Positions 4,568 through 23,757 of a stretch of 33,080 nt of DNA are shown piece by piece. The first letter of the stretch is position 1; each line of letters begins with the position of its first letter. The DNA comes from Parcubacteria group bacterium GW2011_GWA2_47_21 (GTDB lineage: Bacteria; Patescibacteriota; Minisyncoccia; Phycocordibacterales; DSPV01). The notes below the pieces were generated by a model. It saw only the letters and a program-made list of their open reading frames with translations, was not told where the DNA came from and searched no databases. The translations under genes were made by a program, and so were the position numbers. The stretch spans positions 1-33,080 of the forward strand of contig LCOC01000011.1 in the NCBI GenBank assembly GCA_001000545.1. The letters run 5' to 3'.

Positions 4568-5665
4568 ATGTCCAAAATTTTTTTTAATTTTTTCCCCTTG
4601 CCGAGGACTCTTGAAATGCCGGCGGTCGGCTTTGACATTGGCGACGATGCCGTGCGTTTTATTGAGCTTAAAAAGACCAACGACGGATTTAAGGTCGGGC
4701 GTTTCGGAGAAAGAATCAATCCGGTTTTAAGAGACCGCAGCGCCGATATTACCAAAAATGGGGGTTTTAGGGGTTTTCTGTCGTCGCTTCGGGAAGCGGA
4801 AAATTTAGGGCCGATAAACGCTTCTTTGCCGGAGGATAAGGCCTATCTTTTTGCAACCGAACTGGTCGGTGTGGATTCTTCTTTGATTCGGTCGGCAATA
4901 GAATTTCGTTTGGAGGAATTTGTGCCGATTCCCGCCAAGGATGCGATTTTTGATTATGAAATTATACCGAGCCAAGCGCAAAGCGGCGCCAAGACGGAAG
5001 TCGGCGTTGCCGTTTTGCCTAAATCAATAGTTTTGAGTTATTTGGAAATGTTTCAAAGCGCGGGCTTCACGCCGCTTTCTTTTGAGGTGGCGGGGCAGGC
5101 GATTGCCAAGGCCGTTGTTAAACGGGGAGACCAGAGAACCCGAATAATAGTTTACTTTGGCAAAAGCGGCAGCACGATATTTGTCGTGAAAGGCGGGGCG
5201 GTGCTTTTCAGTTCGGCCGTATCGGTTGGCGGCGACGCCTTGACTGGCGCTTTTGCCAAAGATAAATCCGTCTCTATCGCCTTAGCCGAGAAATTTAAGT
5301 GGGACAAAGGCCTGCAATTCATAAAAGGCGACATAGAAAATTATGCCGCCGTCTTAAGCTTGCTTGCTAGCGTAAAAGAAGAGCTTAACCGGGTTTTAAG
5401 CTATTGGAAGACCAAAAAAACCAAAGAGGCCAATGATAAAAACGAAGATGATAAAATACGGTCTATAATTTTCTGCGGGCCGGAGGCCGGTTTGCCCGGG
5501 CTTATAGATTATTTCAAAATATACATTTCTGTTCCATCGGAATTGGCCGATGTCTGGGTTAACGTGCTTGATGTCAATGAAAACATTCCACCGATATCTT
5601 TTTCAAAATCGCTGGCCTTCGCGGCGGCCATCGGATTAGCTCTTTCTCGGTCCAGGATTGCTTAA
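4568..5665 (+). CDS. pilM: Type IV pilus assembly ATPase-like protein PilM
   Basis: AVGFDIGDDAVRFIELKK, IIVYFGKSGSTIFVVKGGAVLFSSAVSVGGDALT; followed by PilN/PilO-like ORFs. Confidence 0.88.
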   Translation: MSKIFFNFFPLPRTLEMPAVGFDIGDDAVRFIELKKTNDGFKVGRFGERINPVLRDRSADITKNGGFRGFLSSLREAENLGPINASLPEDKAYLFATELVGVDSSLIRSAIEFRLEEFVPIPAKDAIFDYEIIPSQAQSGAKTEVGVAVLPKSIVLSYLEMFQSAGFTPLSFEVAGQAIAKAVVKRGDQRTRIIVYFGKSGSTIFVVKGGAVLFSSAVSVGGDALTGAFAKDKSVSIALAEKFKWDKGLQFIKGDIENYAAVLSLLASVKEELNRVLSYWKTKKTKEANDKNEDDKIRSIIFCGPEAGLPGLIDYFKIYISVPSELADVWVNVLDVNENIPPISFSKSLAFAAAIGLALSRSRIA

Positions 5666-5694
5666 TTTACCGCCAAAAAATTTTTAGAACCACA

Positions 5695-6246
5695 ATGTTT
5701 AATTTATTGCCCATTGAGCAGAAAAGGGAAATAAAACGCGAATATATTTTGCGGCTGTTAATCGCGGGCGGGGCGATGGCTTTCATCTCTCTGGCTATAG
5801 CCGCTTTCCTCGTTTTGCCAAGTTACTTTATCGCCTTGGCCGAATATCGTTTGGTTTTGGCGGAACAGCTTGCCGCAGAAAACCTGCTTGAACTCAAAGA
5901 AGCGGCAGAACTTAGAACCGTGATGCGCGAATCCAGAGACAAATTGAGCGTGTCGGCTCTCCTTGGCGGCGAGGTTTCGCCTAGTGAGGTTTTGGACAAA
6001 GCGCTTTCGGCTCGGGCAAACAATGAGGGCGTGAAAATCAGAGGCATTCGCTGGGAGAGAAAAACGGAGAAGGTCTTTGCCGTTACGCTAACCGGCGAAG
6101 CCGACAATCGGGACGCTCTGCTCTCCTTTAAAAAAGGATTGGACCGCGACGGAACTTTTGAGAAAGTGCTTTTGCCGGTTTCTAACTTTGCCAACGCGGA
6201 GAACATTAATTTTATCATTTCAGCCGAGGCCGTTTTTAAAAAATGA
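5695..6246 (+). CDS. PilN-like inner-membrane protein
   Basis: MFNLLPIEQKREIKREY start, single TM, position after pilM. Confidence 0.78.
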   Translation: MFNLLPIEQKREIKREYILRLLIAGGAMAFISLAIAAFLVLPSYFIALAEYRLVLAEQLAAENLLELKEAAELRTVMRESRDKLSVSALLGGEVSPSEVLDKALSARANNEGVKIRGIRWERKTEKVFAVTLTGEADNRDALLSFKKGLDRDGTFEKVLLPVSNFANAENINFIISAEAVFKK

Positions 6247-6776
6247 GGAGCCGCAAAACAAAATTAATTTTGATTTTAATCATTGCCGCCGACATTGCTT
6301 CCGGCCTCTCCCTTTGGCTTATATCGGATAAATTCTGGCAGTTGCGCGACCAAATCGTTGCCGCCAAGAATGAAATCAATGTCGCCAAAAATCAAGATGT
6401 CTACATCCGTTTCATAAAGAAGACGCTTGAGGATACCGGCGAGAAGAGGGCAGTGATTGACCGCTATTTTGTCGGCCCGGATGAGGTAGTGACTTTCATT
6501 AAAGAACTTGAAGCGTCGGCGAAAAAATTGGGGCTTACCGCTACTACGCTGTCTGTTGGCATAGAATCCGGCGACGAAACGCTTTCGTACAGGGAAAATT
6601 TGCGGGTGGCGTTAAAAACTTTGGGCTCGTGGGACCAGATAATCCGTTTTGTTGATACGCTTGGCAACCTTCCTTATCATTTAACCGTGAACTCGGCCGA
6701 TTTATCCTTAATTGAAGAAGGTAAAAAAATGGTGTGGAGCGGAGTTTATGAGATTAATGTGATTAAATTGAAATAA
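6243..6776 (+). CDS. PilO-like inner-membrane protein
   Basis: Single N-terminal TM, 4-nt overlap with upstream PilN-like gene, operon position. Confidence 0.7.
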   Translation: MRSRKTKLILILIIAADIASGLSLWLISDKFWQLRDQIVAAKNEINVAKNQDVYIRFIKKTLEDTGEKRAVIDRYFVGPDEVVTFIKELEASAKKLGLTATTLSVGIESGDETLSYRENLRVALKTLGSWDQIIRFVDTLGNLPYHLTVNSADLSLIEEGKKMVWSGVYEINVIKLK

Positions 6777-10484: not shown

Positions 10485-10973
10485 ATGACGGTGTTAAGTT
10501 GTGATTCGTGCCACTGTTATTTTTCCAGAAAGCCATCGCAAATTGGGCTCGCAAAAAGGCATTTCTGCTCGACTTATTGTCAATATAAAGCAAGTCGAAA
10601 AGGAAGTTTTGTTAGATGTCTCCAGTGCAGTAAGAAAGTATATAAATCTCTTAATAATCTCAAAAGATCGAAGAGCAAAAAGCATTTTTGTTCTGTTTTG
10701 TGCAGTAATATTTGGCATGGCAAAGAGTTTTCTAGAGAAAAGCACCCGAACTGGAAAGGCGGTGAGTTCTCTTACAAAGACGCTTTAAAAAGACACGATG
10801 TATTGAAACAATGTGTTCTTTGTGGAAAATCAGACCAGAGGATTCTAGCAGTGCATCATGTTGATCGTAATCGTAAAAATAATAAATTGGAGAATTTAAT
10901 GTGGCTTTGCCACAACTGCCACTTTCTTGTTCATCATTATAAGAGAGAAGGATTGAAAATTATGAAAAGTTAA
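10485..10973 (+). CDS. Zinc-finger/HNH endonuclease (copy 1)
   Basis: Cys-pair zinc motifs, HPNWKGGE motif, CVLCGKSDQRILAVHHVDRNRKNNKLENLMWLCHNCHFLVHH. Confidence 0.88.
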   Translation: MTVLSCDSCHCYFSRKPSQIGLAKRHFCSTYCQYKASRKGSFVRCLQCSKKVYKSLNNLKRSKSKKHFCSVLCSNIWHGKEFSREKHPNWKGGEFSYKDALKRHDVLKQCVLCGKSDQRILAVHHVDRNRKNNKLENLMWLCHNCHFLVHHYKREGLKIMKS

Positions 10974-10974
10974 T

Positions 10975-11475
10975 ATGTCTCATCTTTTGTGTAAAATTTG
11001 CAGAAAAAAATTCTATGTTCGTCCTACTCATGTAAAAATTGGATGGGGTAAATATTGTTCCCGGTCTTGTCACCATAAAGGAATGCGGACCGGAAAATTT
11101 ATTGGGTGTTTCCTTTGCGGCAAGGGGATATATAGGACTCCAACAAGCATGTTACACTCAAAAAGTAAAAAATATTTTTGTAGTAAATCGTGTCAAACGA
11201 AATGGAGGAATACGCAGTATATAGGGTCTAAACACGCAAATTGGAAAGATGGCAAAAATGCGTACAAAAGTGTTCTCAATCGTCACGGTATTATGCCGAT
11301 ATGTTTCTATTGTCGGACTCGCGATAAAAGAATTTTAGCAGTTCACCACATCGATGAGAATCATTTTCATAATTATGTCAGTAACCTTGCTTGGCTGTGT
11401 CACAATTGCCATTATTTAGTACATAATGATAAGGTAGAGAAACAAAAATTCTTGGCAAACCTAAACAAGAATTGA
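10975..11475 (+). CDS. Zinc-finger/HNH endonuclease (copy 2, tandem paralogue)
   Basis: Same architecture as copy 1: ANWKDGKNAYKSVLNRHGIMPICFYCRTRDKRILAVHHIDENHFHNYVSNLAWLCHNCHYLVH. Confidence 0.88.
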   Translation: MSHLLCKICRKKFYVRPTHVKIGWGKYCSRSCHHKGMRTGKFIGCFLCGKGIYRTPTSMLHSKSKKYFCSKSCQTKWRNTQYIGSKHANWKDGKNAYKSVLNRHGIMPICFYCRTRDKRILAVHHIDENHFHNYVSNLAWLCHNCHYLVHNDKVEKQKFLANLNKN

Positions 11476-14006: not shown

Positions 14007-14699
14007 ATGAATAAAAATAGCAACAGCACGCTGATTTGGGTCGGGGTGATTATCGCCGTTTTGGTTGCGGGCGGTTTGGCGGTTTATTTCGCCAAAGGAA
14101 GCGGCGCTGGCGGAAATTCCATGGCCAACGCGCTTTCGGCGGTAACCGATACCGATTGGTCAGCCGGCAATAAGAACGCGCCGGTTACTCTTATTGAATA
14201 CAGCGATTTCCAATGCCCGGCTTGCGCCGCTTATTTTCCTTTGATTGAAGAACTCCGCCGGAATAATCCGGATAAATTGCGTTTCGTCTATCGCCACTTT
14301 CCGCTGGCCCAGCATAAAAACGCCGAGCCGGCGGCGCTGGCGTCGGAAGCAGCCGGCAAAGAAGGCAAATTTTTTGAAATGTATGTTACTCTGTTCACCA
14401 GGCAGAAAGAATGGGAAAACGAGCCGAATCCAACCGCGAAATTCGCCGCCTACGCCGTCTTAATAGGCCTTGACGCCAAAAAGTTCCTTGATGATTACAA
14501 GGATGCCGGCGCCAAAGAAAAAATTCGCGCCGACTATAAAGACGGTTTTCGGGCCGGCGTCAATTCCACTCCCACTTTTTTCGTTAACGGTAAAAGAATC
14601 GCCAACCCCAATAACTTAAATGAATTTCAAAAAATTATTGATGACGCCGCTTCAACGGCCGGTTCGGAAATCGGCACTTCTACTCCTCCTCTTAATTAG
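14007..14699 (+). CDS. DsbA-family thiol-disulfide oxidoreductase (membrane-anchored)
   Basis: N-terminal TM; APVTLIEYSDFQCPACAAYFPLIEELRRNNPDKLRFVYRHFPL, NSTPTFFVNGKRI. Confidence 0.93.
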   Translation: MNKNSNSTLIWVGVIIAVLVAGGLAVYFAKGSGAGGNSMANALSAVTDTDWSAGNKNAPVTLIEYSDFQCPACAAYFPLIEELRRNNPDKLRFVYRHFPLAQHKNAEPAALASEAAGKEGKFFEMYVTLFTRQKEWENEPNPTAKFAAYAVLIGLDAKKFLDDYKDAGAKEKIRADYKDGFRAGVNSTPTFFVNGKRIANPNNLNEFQKIIDDAASTAGSEIGTSTPPLN

Positions 14700-15123
14700 C
14701 ATTCTTGGTTTCGCCGATGCCTCTTATCTCGCGGCTAAATTCTATCAAGGCAAAGTCCCGCCTTGTTCCATTGTCTCTGGTTGCGAGGAAGTAACCACAA
14801 GCCAATACGCGACAATTTTAGGCGTGCCGGTGTCCCTTACGGGCGCTCTGTATTATTTGGCCTTTATAATTTTATTGGTCGTTTATCTGGACAGGGGGAA
14901 AGACGCATTTTTTAGGGCGGCGGCTTGGCTTTCGGTTTTTGGCTTTTTGTTTTCCCTCTGGCTTCTTTCCGCGCAACTATTTCTTATCGGCGCGATTTGC
15001 CTCTATTGTTTGTTCTCTTTCACGACTTCAACCGTGATATTTATCACAAGCACAGGCATTTTGGGATGGGGCAGACATGCTATAATAAATACCAATCAAC
15101 CAATAATTCCAATCTACAAATAG
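14641..15123 (+). CDS. Vitamin K epoxide reductase (VKOR) family protein
   Basis: Four TM segments, CSIVSGCEEVTTSQYATILGVPVSLTGALYY and ICLYCLFS CxxC motif; overlaps the dsbA-like gene. Confidence 0.9.
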   Translation: MTPLQRPVRKSALLLLLLISILGFADASYLAAKFYQGKVPPCSIVSGCEEVTTSQYATILGVPVSLTGALYYLAFIILLVVYLDRGKDAFFRAAAWLSVFGFLFSLWLLSAQLFLIGAICLYCLFSFTTSTVIFITSTGILGWGRHAIINTNQPIIPIYK

Positions 15124-15516: not shown

Positions 15517-16665
15517 ATGAGAAAAATTTTCAAATTAGGCGTAGCCGTTTCCATTATTTTAACTCCGCTTATCGCCGGCGCGGCCTATTTTAGAGCGGGC
15601 GATTCTTACACGCTTCGCGCCGATGCGGTGGTTGACGACAATCTTTATGTGGCCGGTTCCAATTTGTTCATCAGCGGAAGGGTGGAGGGCGACATTGCCG
15701 GTTTAGGAAGCGCCATTGTCATCTCCGGCGCAGTGTCGGACGATGTGCTGCTGGCCGGCGGGAATATTGATTTTAGGGGCGAAACCGAAGGCGATTTGAG
15801 GGTGCTCGGCGGGACGGTTCTGGTTTCCGGAAAAATCGGCGGCGACTTGGTGGTAACCGGCGGCACGGTAACTATTTTACCGGAAGCGGTTATCGGCAAA
15901 GATGTGGCGGTGGTTGGCGGCGAAGTGTTTTTCGCGGGCGAAACGAAAGGCGATTTACTCATTTCCGGCGGCAACGCGGAAATCGGCGGGCGGGTAGGAG
16001 GCAAAGCCAAATTTATCGGGGAGGAAATTAGGATTGCTGACGGCGCGTCCATTGTCGGCAACTTCATTTACCGGACAAAGCATCCGGACGATGCTCTTAT
16101 TTCTTCGGCGGCGCAAATTGGCGGCGCGGTGCAATATGAAGATTTGGGCGCGCTTGGCAGGGAGCGGGCGAGAGAATTTTGGGCCGGCGCTTTCGGCATA
16201 GCGTTTTTGACGCGGCTTCTGGTTTTCCTTTTGTCGGCGTTCCTCATCGTTTGGCTTTTGCCGAAGGCCTCTTCGTCGTGGCTTGAAAGAGGGCGAGCGT
16301 TCGGCAAAAATCTTCTGACCGGATTTTTGGTTTTGGTGGCAACGCCGATTGCCGCAATCATTCTCTGCGTGACTGTTATCGGCTCGCTTGCCGGTCTAAT
16401 CCTTCTGGTCGCTTACGCGCTTTTTATTTTCGCCGCTCTGCCTTTGACCGGACTTTTGGCCGGCGATATCCTCGCCAACCTGTTTAAGAATAGCGACTTG
16501 AAATTCTCTTTACCAAACAAGGCGATTGTCGGAACAATCACTTTAAGTTTAGTCAGTTTGACGCCGGTTATCGGACCCGCGCTATTTTTCCTGATTTTTC
16601 TTGCTTCTTTAGGCGCGCTCTCGCAGGAGTTTTATACAAGAGTGTGGCTTCGGAGAAAATTGTAG
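15517..16665 (+). CDS. Secreted/membrane bactofilin-like (polymer-forming, beta-helix repeat) protein with C-terminal TM region
   Basis: Signal peptide, then repeated GxxxGDLxxxGGxVxxSGxIGGDLxxTGGxV pattern, then several TM helices. Confidence 0.82.
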   Translation: MRKIFKLGVAVSIILTPLIAGAAYFRAGDSYTLRADAVVDDNLYVAGSNLFISGRVEGDIAGLGSAIVISGAVSDDVLLAGGNIDFRGETEGDLRVLGGTVLVSGKIGGDLVVTGGTVTILPEAVIGKDVAVVGGEVFFAGETKGDLLISGGNAEIGGRVGGKAKFIGEEIRIADGASIVGNFIYRTKHPDDALISSAAQIGGAVQYEDLGALGRERAREFWAGAFGIAFLTRLLVFLLSAFLIVWLLPKASSSWLERGRAFGKNLLTGFLVLVATPIAAIILCVTVIGSLAGLILLVAYALFIFAALPLTGLLAGDILANLFKNSDLKFSLPNKAIVGTITLSLVSLTPVIGPALFFLIFLASLGALSQEFYTRVWLRRKL

Positions 16666-17534: not shown

Positions 17535-17835
17535 AATTGGGGATTTTTTGTTGCGTTCCGGAGCAGATAGGCGATAAAATGCTCTTGCACAGTGAGTTTT
17601 CGTTTTGAGGGGAAACCAAAACGAAAAAGAAAATGGTATGCAACAGGTTTCCCGAATAAAAACTTTTGTTTTCAATTTGCGTCGCTAAACGGCTTTTGCC
17701 GTTTGGCGATTTTCGTTTGTAACAGAATTCGGGAAATCTCGCCAGGTCTTTGAGAAAAGAAATTTCGGCGAGAGAAGCTAACAAGGAAGGCTAAACCTTC
17801 CCCTAGGAAGGTTTAGCCTTCCTTGGATTATTTTT
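17535..17835 (+). ncRNA. Candidate structured RNA / long attenuator-like leader with multiple helices
   Basis: Helices: 17549-17554/17640-17645; 17598-17606/17618-17626; 17648-17657/17727-17736; hairpin 17682-17709; 17737-17743/17767-17773; terminator at 17782-17825. No plus-strand ORF listed between 17136 and 17954. Confidence 0.45.
17782..17835 (+). terminator. Strong intrinsic terminator
   Basis: caaggaaggctaaaccttcc-ccta-ggaaggtttagccttccttg (20-bp perfect stem) followed by gattatttttt. Confidence 0.85.
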
Positions 17836-17953: not shown

Positions 17954-18607
17954 ATGAAAAAAGTTATTGCAGGAATTGCGGTAGTCGCGATGTTTGCGGT
18001 TGCTTCTCCAGCTTTGGCTTGGCACTGGTCATCGTCCGACATTGATGTGGATGTGGAGAATAAAAACACCGCAGTTGTCAATACGGTTACAACCGTGGCG
18101 AATACGGGAGGCAATACTGCTGACGGCGGGAACGCAACAACCAACAGCGGTGGCGGTAATGTCTCCGGCTTCGGAAATGACAACAACACCACTGGTGCGG
18201 GTAACGCTGATTCCGAAGGGGGAAAAGGAGGAACGGTGAATACCGGCGATGCTGGCGCGAAGTCAAGCGTGTCAAACGATGTCAACTCAACCTACATCAA
18301 GGTCAAGGTTCCGTGCGGTTGCAAGGGCGACATTGATGTTGATGTAGAGAATAAAAACACTCTTGTTGACAATCTTGTTGGCACAGGTGCCGACACTGGC
18401 TACAACTATACTGACGGCGGAAGCGCTGATACAAGCACGGGCGGCGGCAATGTTTCCGGTTTCGGAAATGATGGAAACAACACTGGCGCTGGCACATCTA
18501 ATTCCGACGGCGGAGACGGCGGTTCGGTTACGACCGGCAACTCTTGGGCAAAATCCAAGGTGACCAACACGGTCAACTCTACGGTTGTTCGCGTTCGCAA
18601 AATCTAG
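17954..18607 (+). CDS. Secreted Asn/Gly-rich repeat protein with two ~90-aa repeats
   Basis: Signal peptide MKKVIAGIAVVAMFAVASPALA; two copies of DIDVDVENKNT...TGxN...GGGNVSGFGND...TGAG...AKSxVxNxVNST. Confidence 0.85.
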   Translation: MKKVIAGIAVVAMFAVASPALAWHWSSSDIDVDVENKNTAVVNTVTTVANTGGNTADGGNATTNSGGGNVSGFGNDNNTTGAGNADSEGGKGGTVNTGDAGAKSSVSNDVNSTYIKVKVPCGCKGDIDVDVENKNTLVDNLVGTGADTGYNYTDGGSADTSTGGGNVSGFGNDGNNTGAGTSNSDGGDGGSVTTGNSWAKSKVTNTVNSTVVRVRKI

Positions 18608-18719
18608 TGCGGACATATGAAGTATGAAAGCTCATTGCTTTCTCCTTCGCGAACCGAGCTTCTGCTTGTGACGGGAGCTCGGGGGCGAGGGTTTTGGGGA
18701 ACTGGCCCGGCCCTCTTTC

Positions 18720-19463
18720 ATGGATTTTCAAAAAACAACGGTATCCATAACTCTGGTTTTTATAGCTCTTTTCACAGCCGGTTTGGTTTCGGCGAAAGAG
18801 TTTTATTTCAATGTGCCTAAGCCGAATTTGCGCAATTTGCCGGAGATTTCCGTTTCTAAAGTAAATGACGACGCGGGAGGAACTTCCATTACCAATGACA
18901 TTTCCGTTTCCGCTTCAACCGGCGGGAATAATGTTTCGGGAGGCAGTGGTCAATCCGGCGGAACGATTCAAACCGGCTCGGCCAAAGCGGAAGTCAAAAT
19001 TCAAACCACGGTCAATGGGGAAGTGATAGAGGATTTTGACGAAGAGTATGAGGGCGAAGCCGAGATTGAAAAGGAGTTTGAAAATGCCAGCGGGACGGTT
19101 AAAACGCGGGTGGAGGTGAAGGTGCGGAGCGGGACGAGCACGGCAGGCAACCTACAACCGACGACCCTGCCTCTGCCCTACCTGCCGGCAGGCAGGTGGC
19201 AGGCAGGCAACAACCAACAACAAGAGTTGCTAGAAGAAAAAGAGAAGAGTAGTTGGTTTTTGAAAATTTGGCCTTTCGGTGAAGAAGTTGACGAGGCAAA
19301 ACCTCGTCATCCTGACAAGGTTTTGCCTCGCTCTGACTTTAGTAGCAGTTCGCCGACCACATCGCCTGAAGCATTTGTTTCAAAAGATTTACCGACCAAT
19401 CACATTATTCGACAGGCGATTCAGAATTTCTTTAAAAATTTGTTTTCAATTTTCAGGATTTGA
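18720..19463 (+). CDS. Secreted protein with TGGN-type repeat
   Basis: Signal peptide; ITNDISVSASTGGNNVSGGSGQSGGTIQTGSAKAEVKIQTTVNG; the CDS also contains a GC-rich palindromic repeat. Confidence 0.75.
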   Translation: MDFQKTTVSITLVFIALFTAGLVSAKEFYFNVPKPNLRNLPEISVSKVNDDAGGTSITNDISVSASTGGNNVSGGSGQSGGTIQTGSAKAEVKIQTTVNGEVIEDFDEEYEGEAEIEKEFENASGTVKTRVEVKVRSGTSTAGNLQPTTLPLPYLPAGRWQAGNNQQQELLEEKEKSSWFLKIWPFGEEVDEAKPRHPDKVLPRSDFSSSSPTTSPEAFVSKDLPTNHIIRQAIQNFFKNLFSIFRI

Positions 19464-19517
19464 TTTATGGAGCATCAGATTCTCCAGAAGGATTTGAGAC
19501 TCCAAAGATTTAAGACA

Positions 19518-21350
19518 ATGAAGAATTTCAAGAAAAAACTGGCGGGGATACTTATGTTTTCAATGCTTTTGGCGACAACGCCGGCCGGTTTTGTCTTTGC
19601 CGATTTGTCTTCCGATACCGTTTCTTCCACCACACCCACCGCCACCGTTACAACCGGCGACACGGCGTCGGTGACCGATGTGGAGAATGCGGTTAATACC
19701 AGCAATATAACTGACAACCCACAACCCACAACCGACAACCAAGAACAAACTTCAACCGGAGAAGTTGCGGAGTCACTACCAATTAGCACTGAATCATTAG
19801 CTTCCACTACACCCCAAAACACGAGTGCCGATATTGTTAATGAAGCTACGGTTTCAAACGATGTCGCTGGTCTTGCTTCAACGGGGGAGAACAGTTCTGT
19901 TTCAAATGACGGCAATGCTTCTATTGAGACTGGCACGGCAGTGTCGGTGGTAAATGTCGCCAATGTCGTGAACACCACGATTTTTGATTCGCAAGGTTTC
20001 ATTCTGCTTTTGAACAGTTTATTCGGCGAGGTCGGCACGATTGATACGCGCCTTTTTATGTCCGGCAATTCCGATTCCACGATTCCTTGCGGAGGGAATT
20101 GCTCTTTCTTCCCGTCTCAAACTTCGCTTAACGCGAGTTCCACCGCTTCCATTACCAACAATATTATTGCCAGAGCCAATACCGGCGGCAATGAAGCGGA
20201 GGGCGACAACGCTTTTGTAGGCACCGGCGACGCTTTTGCCGGCGTCAATTTAGTGAACATTGCCAACACCAATATCACCAACTCCAGTTATATGTTGGTG
20301 GCTTTCAATAATTTCGGCGATTGGGGCGGGGACTTGGTTTTGCCCGGCAAGGATTTTTGGAGCAAGTTTTTTAATCCGCGAGCGCCTTCTTTGAATCAAA
20401 ATGGGGACGGCCAAGGAGCTTCGGTCTCCGTTAACAATGAAAATAGCGCCAACGTGGAGAATGGGGTGGATACGGTTGCCGACACCGGCGGCAATGAAGC
20501 GGAGGGCGACAGCGCTTCCGTGGACACCGGCAATGCCGTTTCTTCCACTAATGTGGTAAATCAGGTTAATAAAAATCTTTTCGGTTCCGATTCTTTCCTC
20601 GTGGTCTTTAGAGTGTTCGGCAATTGGACGGGCAATGTTTTCAGCGCGCCGCCCGGGATGTCTTGGACGGAGAGCGAGGGGGGTCTTCAAATCATGTATG
20701 ACGAAGAGGCGGCGGCCACTGGTTATGAAAGTGAAGACGACAGTGGCGAAGGTGGTTCTAGCGGGGGTGAAGGTGGCGGGCCGAGTTCTGTTTCTGTGCG
20801 CAATAACAATCGGGCGGACATAAAAAACAATGTGCAAGTTTTTGCTTTAACCGGCGCCAATAAAGCCCAAGGCGATTCGGGAGCGGAGGTAGAGACGGGC
20901 AACGCTTACGCCGGCGCCAACATCGTGAACCTCGCCAACACCAACATTTTCGGCCGAAACTGGATTCTCGCCATCTTCAACATCTTTGGCGACTGGTCTG
21001 GCGATGTCGCGTTCGGCCGCCCCGACCTTTGGGTGGGGACGGAGATTGAGCGCCGGCCGGAGGGTTTTACCTCCGGCTCTCCGGTGGAATTTAAATTTAC
21101 TGTGGCCAATCTAGGCGATGCTGACGCCACCAACGTTTATTTAAATCTCGGATTGAACAATGATAAATTGGCCTATTTTCATGGCGCCAATTACAGACAC
21201 AATAGAAACAACAGAGAAATCGCCCGATACTATTTAGGTAACATCCCGGCTGGCGAGTTTAGGGAATTTAATCAGATGGCGCTTGTTCGGGATGTGCCTT
21301 ACGGCGGGGCGTTTTCGGGAGGCCGTTCAAGGCGTCCAAATAAATTATGA
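19518..21350 (+). CDS. Large secreted repeat protein (four ~100-aa TGGN/FGxW repeats), N-terminal part of a frameshifted ORF
   Basis: MKNFKKKLAGILMFSMLLATTPAGFVFA signal; repeats ANTGGNEAEGDNAFVGTGDAFAGVNLVNIANTN...FNNFGDW; then CARDB/DUF11-like VEFKFTVANLGDADATNVYLNLGL. Confidence 0.85.
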   Translation: MKNFKKKLAGILMFSMLLATTPAGFVFADLSSDTVSSTTPTATVTTGDTASVTDVENAVNTSNITDNPQPTTDNQEQTSTGEVAESLPISTESLASTTPQNTSADIVNEATVSNDVAGLASTGENSSVSNDGNASIETGTAVSVVNVANVVNTTIFDSQGFILLLNSLFGEVGTIDTRLFMSGNSDSTIPCGGNCSFFPSQTSLNASSTASITNNIIARANTGGNEAEGDNAFVGTGDAFAGVNLVNIANTNITNSSYMLVAFNNFGDWGGDLVLPGKDFWSKFFNPRAPSLNQNGDGQGASVSVNNENSANVENGVDTVADTGGNEAEGDSASVDTGNAVSSTNVVNQVNKNLFGSDSFLVVFRVFGNWTGNVFSAPPGMSWTESEGGLQIMYDEEAAATGYESEDDSGEGGSSGGEGGGPSSVSVRNNNRADIKNNVQVFALTGANKAQGDSGAEVETGNAYAGANIVNLANTNIFGRNWILAIFNIFGDWSGDVAFGRPDLWVGTEIERRPEGFTSGSPVEFKFTVANLGDADATNVYLNLGLNNDKLAYFHGANYRHNRNNREIARYYLGNIPAGEFREFNQMALVRDVPYGGAFSGGRSRRPNKL

Positions 21351-22083
21351 GTTCGACCCCAAGCTTTCTGTTAGTAAACTTAACAACGCTCCGTTTGGCG
21401 TTTATGCTTCTTCAACCGTTGGTTATACGATTGTTGTTGAAAACAAAGGCGGGCCGGCTTACTATGCGATTTTAAAGGATGTTTTGAAGAATGAAGCGGG
21501 CGAGGCGGTGGGTGAGCAGACCTGGGATCTTGGGACTGTTCTGCCAAATGAAGAGATTACCGTAAATTACGGAACTTTTTTTAATCCCAATGCTCCGCCG
21601 GGTAAATACACCAATTTCGCGGAGGTCAAAGCTGTTGGCCGAAGTTCGGTTCTAGAGCCCTTCTACGGAAACCACGTCAGTTCCGGAGTCGCCACCAGTT
21701 CTATTGTAATGCTCGCGCCCGACGAAGTGCCGGAAATTCCCGCCGATGTGATTTTACCTGAACCGGAAGAAGCGCCGGCTACCACGACGATTGACCGAGT
21801 AATCAAGCCCGCGCCCCAAACGCCGCTTAGCGGCGGAATGAGCAAGAAACCGTCGCCGTTTCCGGCGCTTCTGCCGCAGGCCCTGCCGCCTTCGCCGCCG
21901 GTCCACGGCAGTCCGTTAAGCGGCCTTGAAGCGGCGGTAATTGTGGGAGCAAAGCCGCTTAAGCTACCCAAAGATTTGAGTTTGGCGGCGCTTCTTATCG
22001 CCCTTGCCGGCGTCTCTCTTAATAGATTCAATCCCGAGCAATACCGACAATGGCGGAACGCTTTGACGACTTTTTTCTGGTAG
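21326..22083 (+). CDS. C-terminal part of the large secreted repeat protein in the +1 frame
   Basis: VQGVQINYEFDPKLSVSK...VGYTIVVENKGGPAYYAILKDVLKNEAGEAVGEQTWDLGTVLPNEEI continues the domain; C-terminal hydrophobic segment. Boundary approximate. Confidence 0.75.
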
Positions 22084-22209: not shown

Positions 22210-23757
22210 ATGAAGAAGGCCTTAAAGAACAAGGTGTTTTTGGTTGCCGCGGCGTTTTTCGTCATCGGCACTTTAACTTTTGTGATTTTGCGGAACGGAA
22301 ACGGAAAGTATGCTTACGCCGAAGCGGCGGTTGGGGAGGTCTTAAAGACCGTTTCCGTAACCGGAAAAGTTCGGCCGGTTCGGGAGGCGACTTTGGGTTT
22401 TGAACGAAGCGGAAAAATTGCCGGTTCGTTTGTGAAAGTGGGCGATACCGTTGCGGCGGGCGAGCCGCTTGTCCGGCTGGATTCAAGCGAGCAATATGCG
22501 GCGATTCTTCAAGCGGAAGCAAATTTGCGAGGCGTGGAAGCGGCTTTGAATAAACTTATTCGCGGCGCCAGAACCGAAGAAATCCAGGTCTCGGAAGTGA
22601 AAGTTTTAAATGCCAAGGAAGCGGTCTTAAATTTCCAAAATGCCGCCGCGGATTCAATTCGAGACGCTTACACCAAAACCGATGACGCCGTTCGGAACAA
22701 GGCCGACCAGCTGTTTTCAAATCCCAGAACCAGCCAGCCGAAGTTTAATTATCTTCTTTCCGACGCCGGATTTAAAAGCAATTTGGAAGAGAGTCGGTTT
22801 CTCTTGGGAAAAGAGCTTAACGATTTTTCGGATAAACTTTTAGGCATCGGAGCGGGTTCTGATTTTTCCGAGTTATTTTATTCAGCCAAGCAAACGCTTG
22901 CTAAAACCGCGGCGTTTCTAAATAATTTGGCGCTGGCTTTAAGCGCGCTAGCCCCCAATCCCGGCCTTTCTCAAGCCACTATAGACGGTTGGAAAACGGA
23001 TATCGCGACGGCGCGGACCAATGTGAATAACGCGATAAGCGGTCTTTCCGCCGCGGAGAAAAATCTGCGGGACGGCGAAGCTGCCGCCCGCTTGGCCAGT
23101 GAAGAACTCGCTCTTCTGAAAGCTCCGGCCGGAGCAGAGGAGATTCAAAACAGCGAAGCGTCAGTCGCTCATGCCGGCGCCGCTTTATTGTCGGCCAAGG
23201 TGTCGTTTGAAAAATCCACGCTTCGTTCCCCAATAAACGCTCTGGTCGTGTCGCAAGAGCCAAAAACCGGAGAATTTGTTTCGGCCGGCGAGCCGGTCAT
23301 AATTTTGATGAGCGACAAAGAATTTGAAATAGAAGCCGATGTACCTGAAGTTGATATCGGCGGCATAGCGCTCGGCAATCTAGCAACGGTTGTCTTGGAC
23401 GCGATGCTTAACGAAGAATTTTACGGAGAGGTCTTTGCCGTTTACCCGGCGGAGACAATCATACAGGGCGTGCCGACTTATAAAGTAAAAATTTCTCTTA
23501 AGACCTCTGATGAGAGGATTAGAGCCGGTCTCACCGCCAATCTCTCAATTCTCACCTTTAAAAAGGATGGCGTTTTGGTTCTGCCGGCGCGATTCGTCAA
23601 GGAGGACCAAAGCGGCGCTTATATTTCTTTCGTAAATGCGGAGGGCGAATTAATCCGCAAGCCGGTCGCCGCAGGCCTTCGCGGCACCAACGGTTTCGTT
23701 GAAATAATCGGCGGTTTGAAGGCAGGAGACAGAGTGGCGGATTTGGACAAAAGTTAA
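22210..23757 (+). CDS. HlyD/RND-type membrane fusion (efflux periplasmic adaptor) protein
   Basis: VGEVLKTVSVTGKVRPVREATLGFERSGKIAGSFVKVGDTVAAGEPLVRLDSSE...ALVVSQEPKTGEFVSAGEPVIILMS. Confidence 0.9.
   Translation: MKKALKNKVFLVAAAFFVIGTLTFVILRNGNGKYAYAEAAVGEVLKTVSVTGKVRPVREATLGFERSGKIAGSFVKVGDTVAAGEPLVRLDSSEQYAAILQAEANLRGVEAALNKLIRGARTEEIQVSEVKVLNAKEAVLNFQNAAADSIRDAYTKTDDAVRNKADQLFSNPRTSQPKFNYLLSDAGFKSNLEESRFLLGKELNDFSDKLLGIGAGSDFSELFYSAKQTLAKTAAFLNNLALALSALAPNPGLSQATIDGWKTDIATARTNVNNAISGLSAAEKNLRDGEAAARLASEELALLKAPAGAEEIQNSEASVAHAGAALLSAKVSFEKSTLRSPINALVVSQEPKTGEFVSAGEPVIILMSDKEFEIEADVPEVDIGGIALGNLATVVLDAMLNEEFYGEVFAVYPAETIIQGVPTYKVKISLKTSDERIRAGLTANLSILTFKKDGVLVLPARFVKEDQSGAYISFVNAEGELIRKPVAAGLRGTNGFVEIIGGLKAGDRVADLDKS

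Follow-up and report, generated by a model that had tools for sequence, protein, structure and literature searches.

Three genes, here called A, B, and C, encode secreted-looking proteins that share one repeat and lie on the forward strand of the window, i.e., the whole 33,080-nucleotide stretch of DNA analyzed, which is contig 11 (LCOC01000011.1) of the small draft genome (489,564 bases, 73% complete) of Parcubacteria group bacterium GW2011_GWA2_47_21, an ultra-small (CPR) bacterium. The ORFs of A and B are exactly those of the preliminary description of this DNA, and the features of the locus are as follows.

17954 to 18607, forward strand: gene A, secreted-looking protein of 217 amino acids, with two repeats joined by a CGC linker and an Arg-containing C-terminal end
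18720 to 19463, forward strand: gene B, secreted-looking protein of 247 amino acids, with one repeat (about 18882 to 19028) and an amphipathic, aromatic tail
19518 to 21350, forward strand: first part of gene C, 610 amino acids from 19518, containing the four repeats and the bulk of the first DUF11-like domain, stopping at a frame break
19824 to 20048, forward strand: C repeat 1 (E value, 1e-28)
20124 to 20348, forward strand: C repeat 2 (E value, 5e-34)
20427 to 20651, forward strand: C repeat 3 (E value, 5e-35)
20793 to 21014, forward strand: C repeat 4 (E value, 2e-37)
21305 to 21322, forward strand: frame break in C, 16 nt against about 105 nt expected from the relative L095
21304 to 22083, forward strand: remainder of gene C in another frame, with a second DUF11-like domain (DUF11 E value, 0.0076, under the cut-off) and a hydrophobic tail

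The N-termini of A, B, and C, judged by eye, resemble signal peptides, in line with the signal peptides originally proposed for all three proteins, and the two repeats of A and four of C equal the copy numbers first given, with one further copy in B. A perfect-looking 20-pair stem-loop followed by a T run (17782 to 17825), resembling a terminator, lies just 5′ of gene A.

A repeat profile built from the C repeats of eight other genomes, with no rows from the window, matched A (2.1e-9), B (1.0e-7), and C (1.4e-108). The real scores were 32.8, 26.6, and 350 bits, respectively, against −9.6, 4.1, and 4.5 bits for the best of 300 composition-preserving shuffles of each protein, and neither shuffled nor reversed sequences came near them; the proposal that one repeat is common to all three proteins therefore stands far above chance. 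Within the draft genome (at its 73% completeness), the repeat is present only at this locus. At E values of up to 1, neither A nor the repeat region of C matched any Pfam family, A and the repeats had no sequence match in Pfam, NCBIfam, or PHROGs, and PDB sequence searches with them returned insignificant matches only. The preliminary description, which recognized no named system here, is thus borne out. Nothing in the open-access literature searched describes this locus. In methanogen-attached Paceibacteria, a 2024 study reported strong expression of secreted proteins that carry peptidoglycan-binding domains (PMC10936435), and these proteins are possibly related.

Gene C had been described as one frame from 19518 to 22083, which cannot be so, as 2,566 nt is not a multiple of 3. 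In this assembly it occupies two frames: the frame that opens at 19518 (or at a possible alternative in-frame start, 19467) runs into a stop at 21350, and a different frame carries the remainder on to 22083. The closest relative of the window C protein, from “Ca. Taylorbacteria” (L095), is 69% identical and intact; compared with it, 35 residues (603 to 637) are absent and 16 nt stand in place of 105, a net loss of 89 nt. In the other genomes in which whole-genome search matched C, the gene is open across the match. The frame break is either a real mutation or an assembly error of the metagenome-assembled genome (MAG). Because C is broken in the assembly, the window copy may not work and the system may be damaged in this genome.

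Several lines of evidence bear on the fold of the repeat. First, among the top 20 coupling pairs in the repeat arms, from mean-field couplings computed on 333 repeats, 13 lie on an antiparallel band (i + j = 54 to 60), where 2.8 were expected; the nominal P value of 1.9e-7 is optimistic, since the band was picked after the couplings had been seen. The averaged band reached 4.5, compared with 2.5 to 3.5 for the best band in each of ten column-shuffled controls, a moderate margin. Second, an AlphaFold model of the four C repeats and most of the first DUF11 domain (mean pLDDT, 80.7; pTM, 0.72) has a strand pattern that fits one long hairpin and a short hydrophobic hairpin per repeat. The model and the couplings together support the prediction that each repeat is a long antiparallel β-hairpin with a variable, often Gly-rich tip. 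Couplings between adjacent repeats gave a strong same-position signal, which may reflect only homogenized repeats, as it is also present between repeats i and i + 2. The couplings within A units were uninformative, the units being poorly aligned, and the AlphaFold model of A (pLDDT, 52) was too poor to read. Foldseek searches of the C model against PDB and BFVD gave nothing at an E value of 0.001 or better, and the leading fold matches, about 95 residues long, correspond in size to the Ig-like DUF11 domain, indicating that none are to the repeats.

In C, four repeats are nearly always present, followed by DUF11 domains and often by a membrane or peptidoglycan-binding tail. Exactly four full repeats were found in 97 of 126 proteins scored, a count in which the same locus may appear more than once and which holds 77 unique four-repeat proteins. 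DUF11 was found in five of nine C proteins (best E value, 8.9e-16) and PG_binding_1 in three of nine, and the earlier suggestion that the long DUF11-bearing protein acts as an anchor is therefore likely. The assignment of C to DUF11 comes through its orthologues, the window fragment alone falling under the cut-off. Simple hydropathy and pattern rules assign a transmembrane-like or PGBD-like tail to 52 of 65 C proteins and, to 55 of the 65, a Cys pair located between the first and second repeats. C-x-C or C-x-x-C motifs are frequent in A proteins, as are ends that contain Arg, and the tails of B and C are more aromatic and amphipathic in character than other ORF tails. The cell-surface role first proposed for the locus is supported.

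In A and in C, the Cys pairs probably form disulfides. Genes for a DsbA-like thioredoxin (Thioredoxin_4, 4e-34) and VKOR (5e-24) are located about 3 kb upstream (14007 to 15123); their products could oxidize these pairs, which would fit secreted disulfide proteins. A thiol-disulfide oxidoreductase enriched in CPR bacteria has been discussed (PMC6744442).

The locus was sought across 85,462 species genomes, and the 68 loci recovered are all CPR except for one on a 2.4-kb contig labelled Dehalococcoidia and a few titled only “bacterium”; because the scan rests on two short peptide motifs, distant relatives outside the CPR could be missed. In 55 of the 68 loci, C is preceded on the same strand by an A-type gene. 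Seven of the 13 loci without one have <1.5 kb of upstream sequence, so that the share among loci with at least 1.5 kb available is 55 of 61. Relatives of B directly precede C in about 25 of these loci (the L147 match is an A protein), and most of them run 3 to 49 nt into the start of C. The A-(B)-C order is kept over very divergent lineages, and this conservation, with the overlap of B and C, suggests one system. The co-localization predicted for related genomes was accordingly found in these CPR-dominated loci.

Within the phylum, a search of 382 genomes drawn across it (threshold, 1e-10) with the C alignment matched 48, and by match range 33 of these (the window's genome included) cover the repeats and the others the DUF11 part only. 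Within the order, 41 of 397 genomes match C (about 10%), which indicates that it is not a core structure. No relatives were found in the viral contigs, phages, and plasmids searched. In a quick tree, the Taylorbacteria C proteins do not group together but occupy several separate positions, a pattern suggestive of transfer or an old duplication. The C-like gene on the Dehalococcoidia-labelled contig (L132, SCTU01000320.1) is placed inside a CPR clade of the tree, and this contig is probably misbinned.

At other CPR loci, proteins with a VWA (4.7e-9), Ice_binding (3.7e-22), or PA14 (2.7e-5) head have the A-type module as their C-terminal part, as do proteins that are TasA-like by eye. Adhesins commonly carry vWA and PA14 heads on surface modules. 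Sortase genes occur in 13 of 98 locus sets (four sortases being Pfam confirmed) and TasA-like genes also in 13 of 98, some loci being counted twice, and LPxTG-like tails end repeat proteins of L083 and L084. The window locus has no sortase gene, no match to a TasA gene or SipW-type peptidase, and no LPxTG tail on A, B, or C. Clusters of TasA-like and SipW-like genes lie near the C locus in L034, L097, L100, L118, L143, and L157, and some TasA-like proteins (by eye) of L119, L127, and L157 carry the repeat.

Each of the known systems compared shares part of this composition. The sortase-assembled pili and LPxTG surface proteins of Gram-positive bacteria also combine secreted repeat proteins, an anchored base, and vWA-type heads on module-bearing proteins, and some related loci have the sortase genes and LPxTG-like tails; however, the window locus lacks both, and the repeat matches no pilin family. 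TasA/camelysin fibers with SipW are similar in that 13 locus sets have genes of this kind close to C and the repeat occurs in a few proteins that look TasA-like by eye, but the window has none, and A, B, and C match no TasA models. DUF11/PG_binding_1 domain proteins resemble the C-terminal half of C, while its four N-terminal repeats are in no family found. Curli (CsgA) is likewise a small, secreted, Asn/Gly-rich repeat protein, in contrast to which the repeat here is longer, is antiparallel where curli would have a parallel solenoid, and lacks any curlin match.

The recurrence of the gene set across CPR lineages, in some cases with sortases or head fusions, indicates that it is probably a cell-surface system for holding on to something. 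From the adhesive heads on the A module, the sortase and TasA-like genes, and the LPxTG-like tails, we infer a modular surface fiber or adhesin display with C as its base, so far seen only in CPR bacteria, a reading that we consider about equally likely to be right or wrong. In such a system, C would be the cell-anchored base and A the exposed subunit, with hairpin contacts docking A on C and perhaps also on other A; B would be a small accessory or linker; the A-type proteins of relatives with vWA, PA14-like, and ice-binding-like heads would be binding tips; and the assembly might polymerize into a fiber. A more specific proposal, which we put forward tentatively, is that the locus represents an undescribed, CPR-limited class of extracellular fiber that is built of long β-hairpin repeats, stands on an anchored base of four hairpins, carries adhesive heads that can be exchanged, and attaches the cells to hosts or surfaces. 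Little is known of CPR attachment to hosts beyond type IV pili, and the locus offers named genes to express, localize, and test, together with a repeat family described in none of the libraries searched.

Other explanations differ mainly in whether the three proteins assemble and into what. The proteins might act alone as separate surface adhesins, the repeat being a binding or spacer module with no mutual assembly; the fusion of the A module to several different heads would suit this, but conservation of the A-(B)-C order over very divergent lineages, with B often overlapping the start of C, makes independent action unlikely. Assembly could instead give a surface coat (an S-layer-like lattice or sheath), with C as the anchored lattice protein and A filling or decorating it. 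C is indeed large, anchored, and secreted, with a fixed repeat number and a small partner encoded beside it, but a patchy distribution, in about 10% of the order's genomes, would be unusual for a main coat, and A modules bear adhesive heads in relatives; we consider a coat rather unlikely.

A fiber could also be a functional amyloid of the curli kind, in which parallel β-solenoid units stack, and the Asn/Gly-rich repeats with alternating hydrophobic positions had led the preliminary description to suggest a β-solenoid or curli-like fiber. That reading was rejected on the antiparallel couplings within repeats, the strand pattern of one hairpin per repeat, and the lack of a Pfam curlin match, and a curli-kind amyloid is very improbable. 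Whatever the system does elsewhere, the locus in this genome might be a decaying remnant, C having been broken by deletion and A and B left over. The frame-breaking loss in C, where relatives carry an intact gene, would agree with decay, but apart from the break the two halves of C remain open and can be aligned, genes A and B are intact, and assembly errors are common in MAGs, so that a remnant appears improbable. The modular surface fiber or adhesin display thus remains the reading that we prefer.

Several other features of the window were noted. An HlyD/MacA-type membrane fusion protein is encoded directly 3′ of C (22210 to 23757); a relative in L032 is followed by ABC transporter genes, none of which were seen adjoining in the window. 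On the other side of the locus, a 382-amino-acid protein (15517 to 16665) has membrane segments and Gly/Val repeats that look bactofilin-like by eye, with no Pfam match above the cut-off. Type IV pilus assembly genes (4568 to 6776) comprise PilM (1e-14), a neighbor called PilN-like solely from its position, and a weak match to PilO (9e-4). Two tandem, mutually similar HNH-like endonuclease ORFs (10485 to 11475) adjoin a tRNA-His gene, and a large serine recombinase (Recombinase, Resolvase, and zinc ribbon; 17 to 1600), the end of which lies beside tRNA-Arg genes (1391 to 1465 and 1539 to 1611), marks a possible mobile element.
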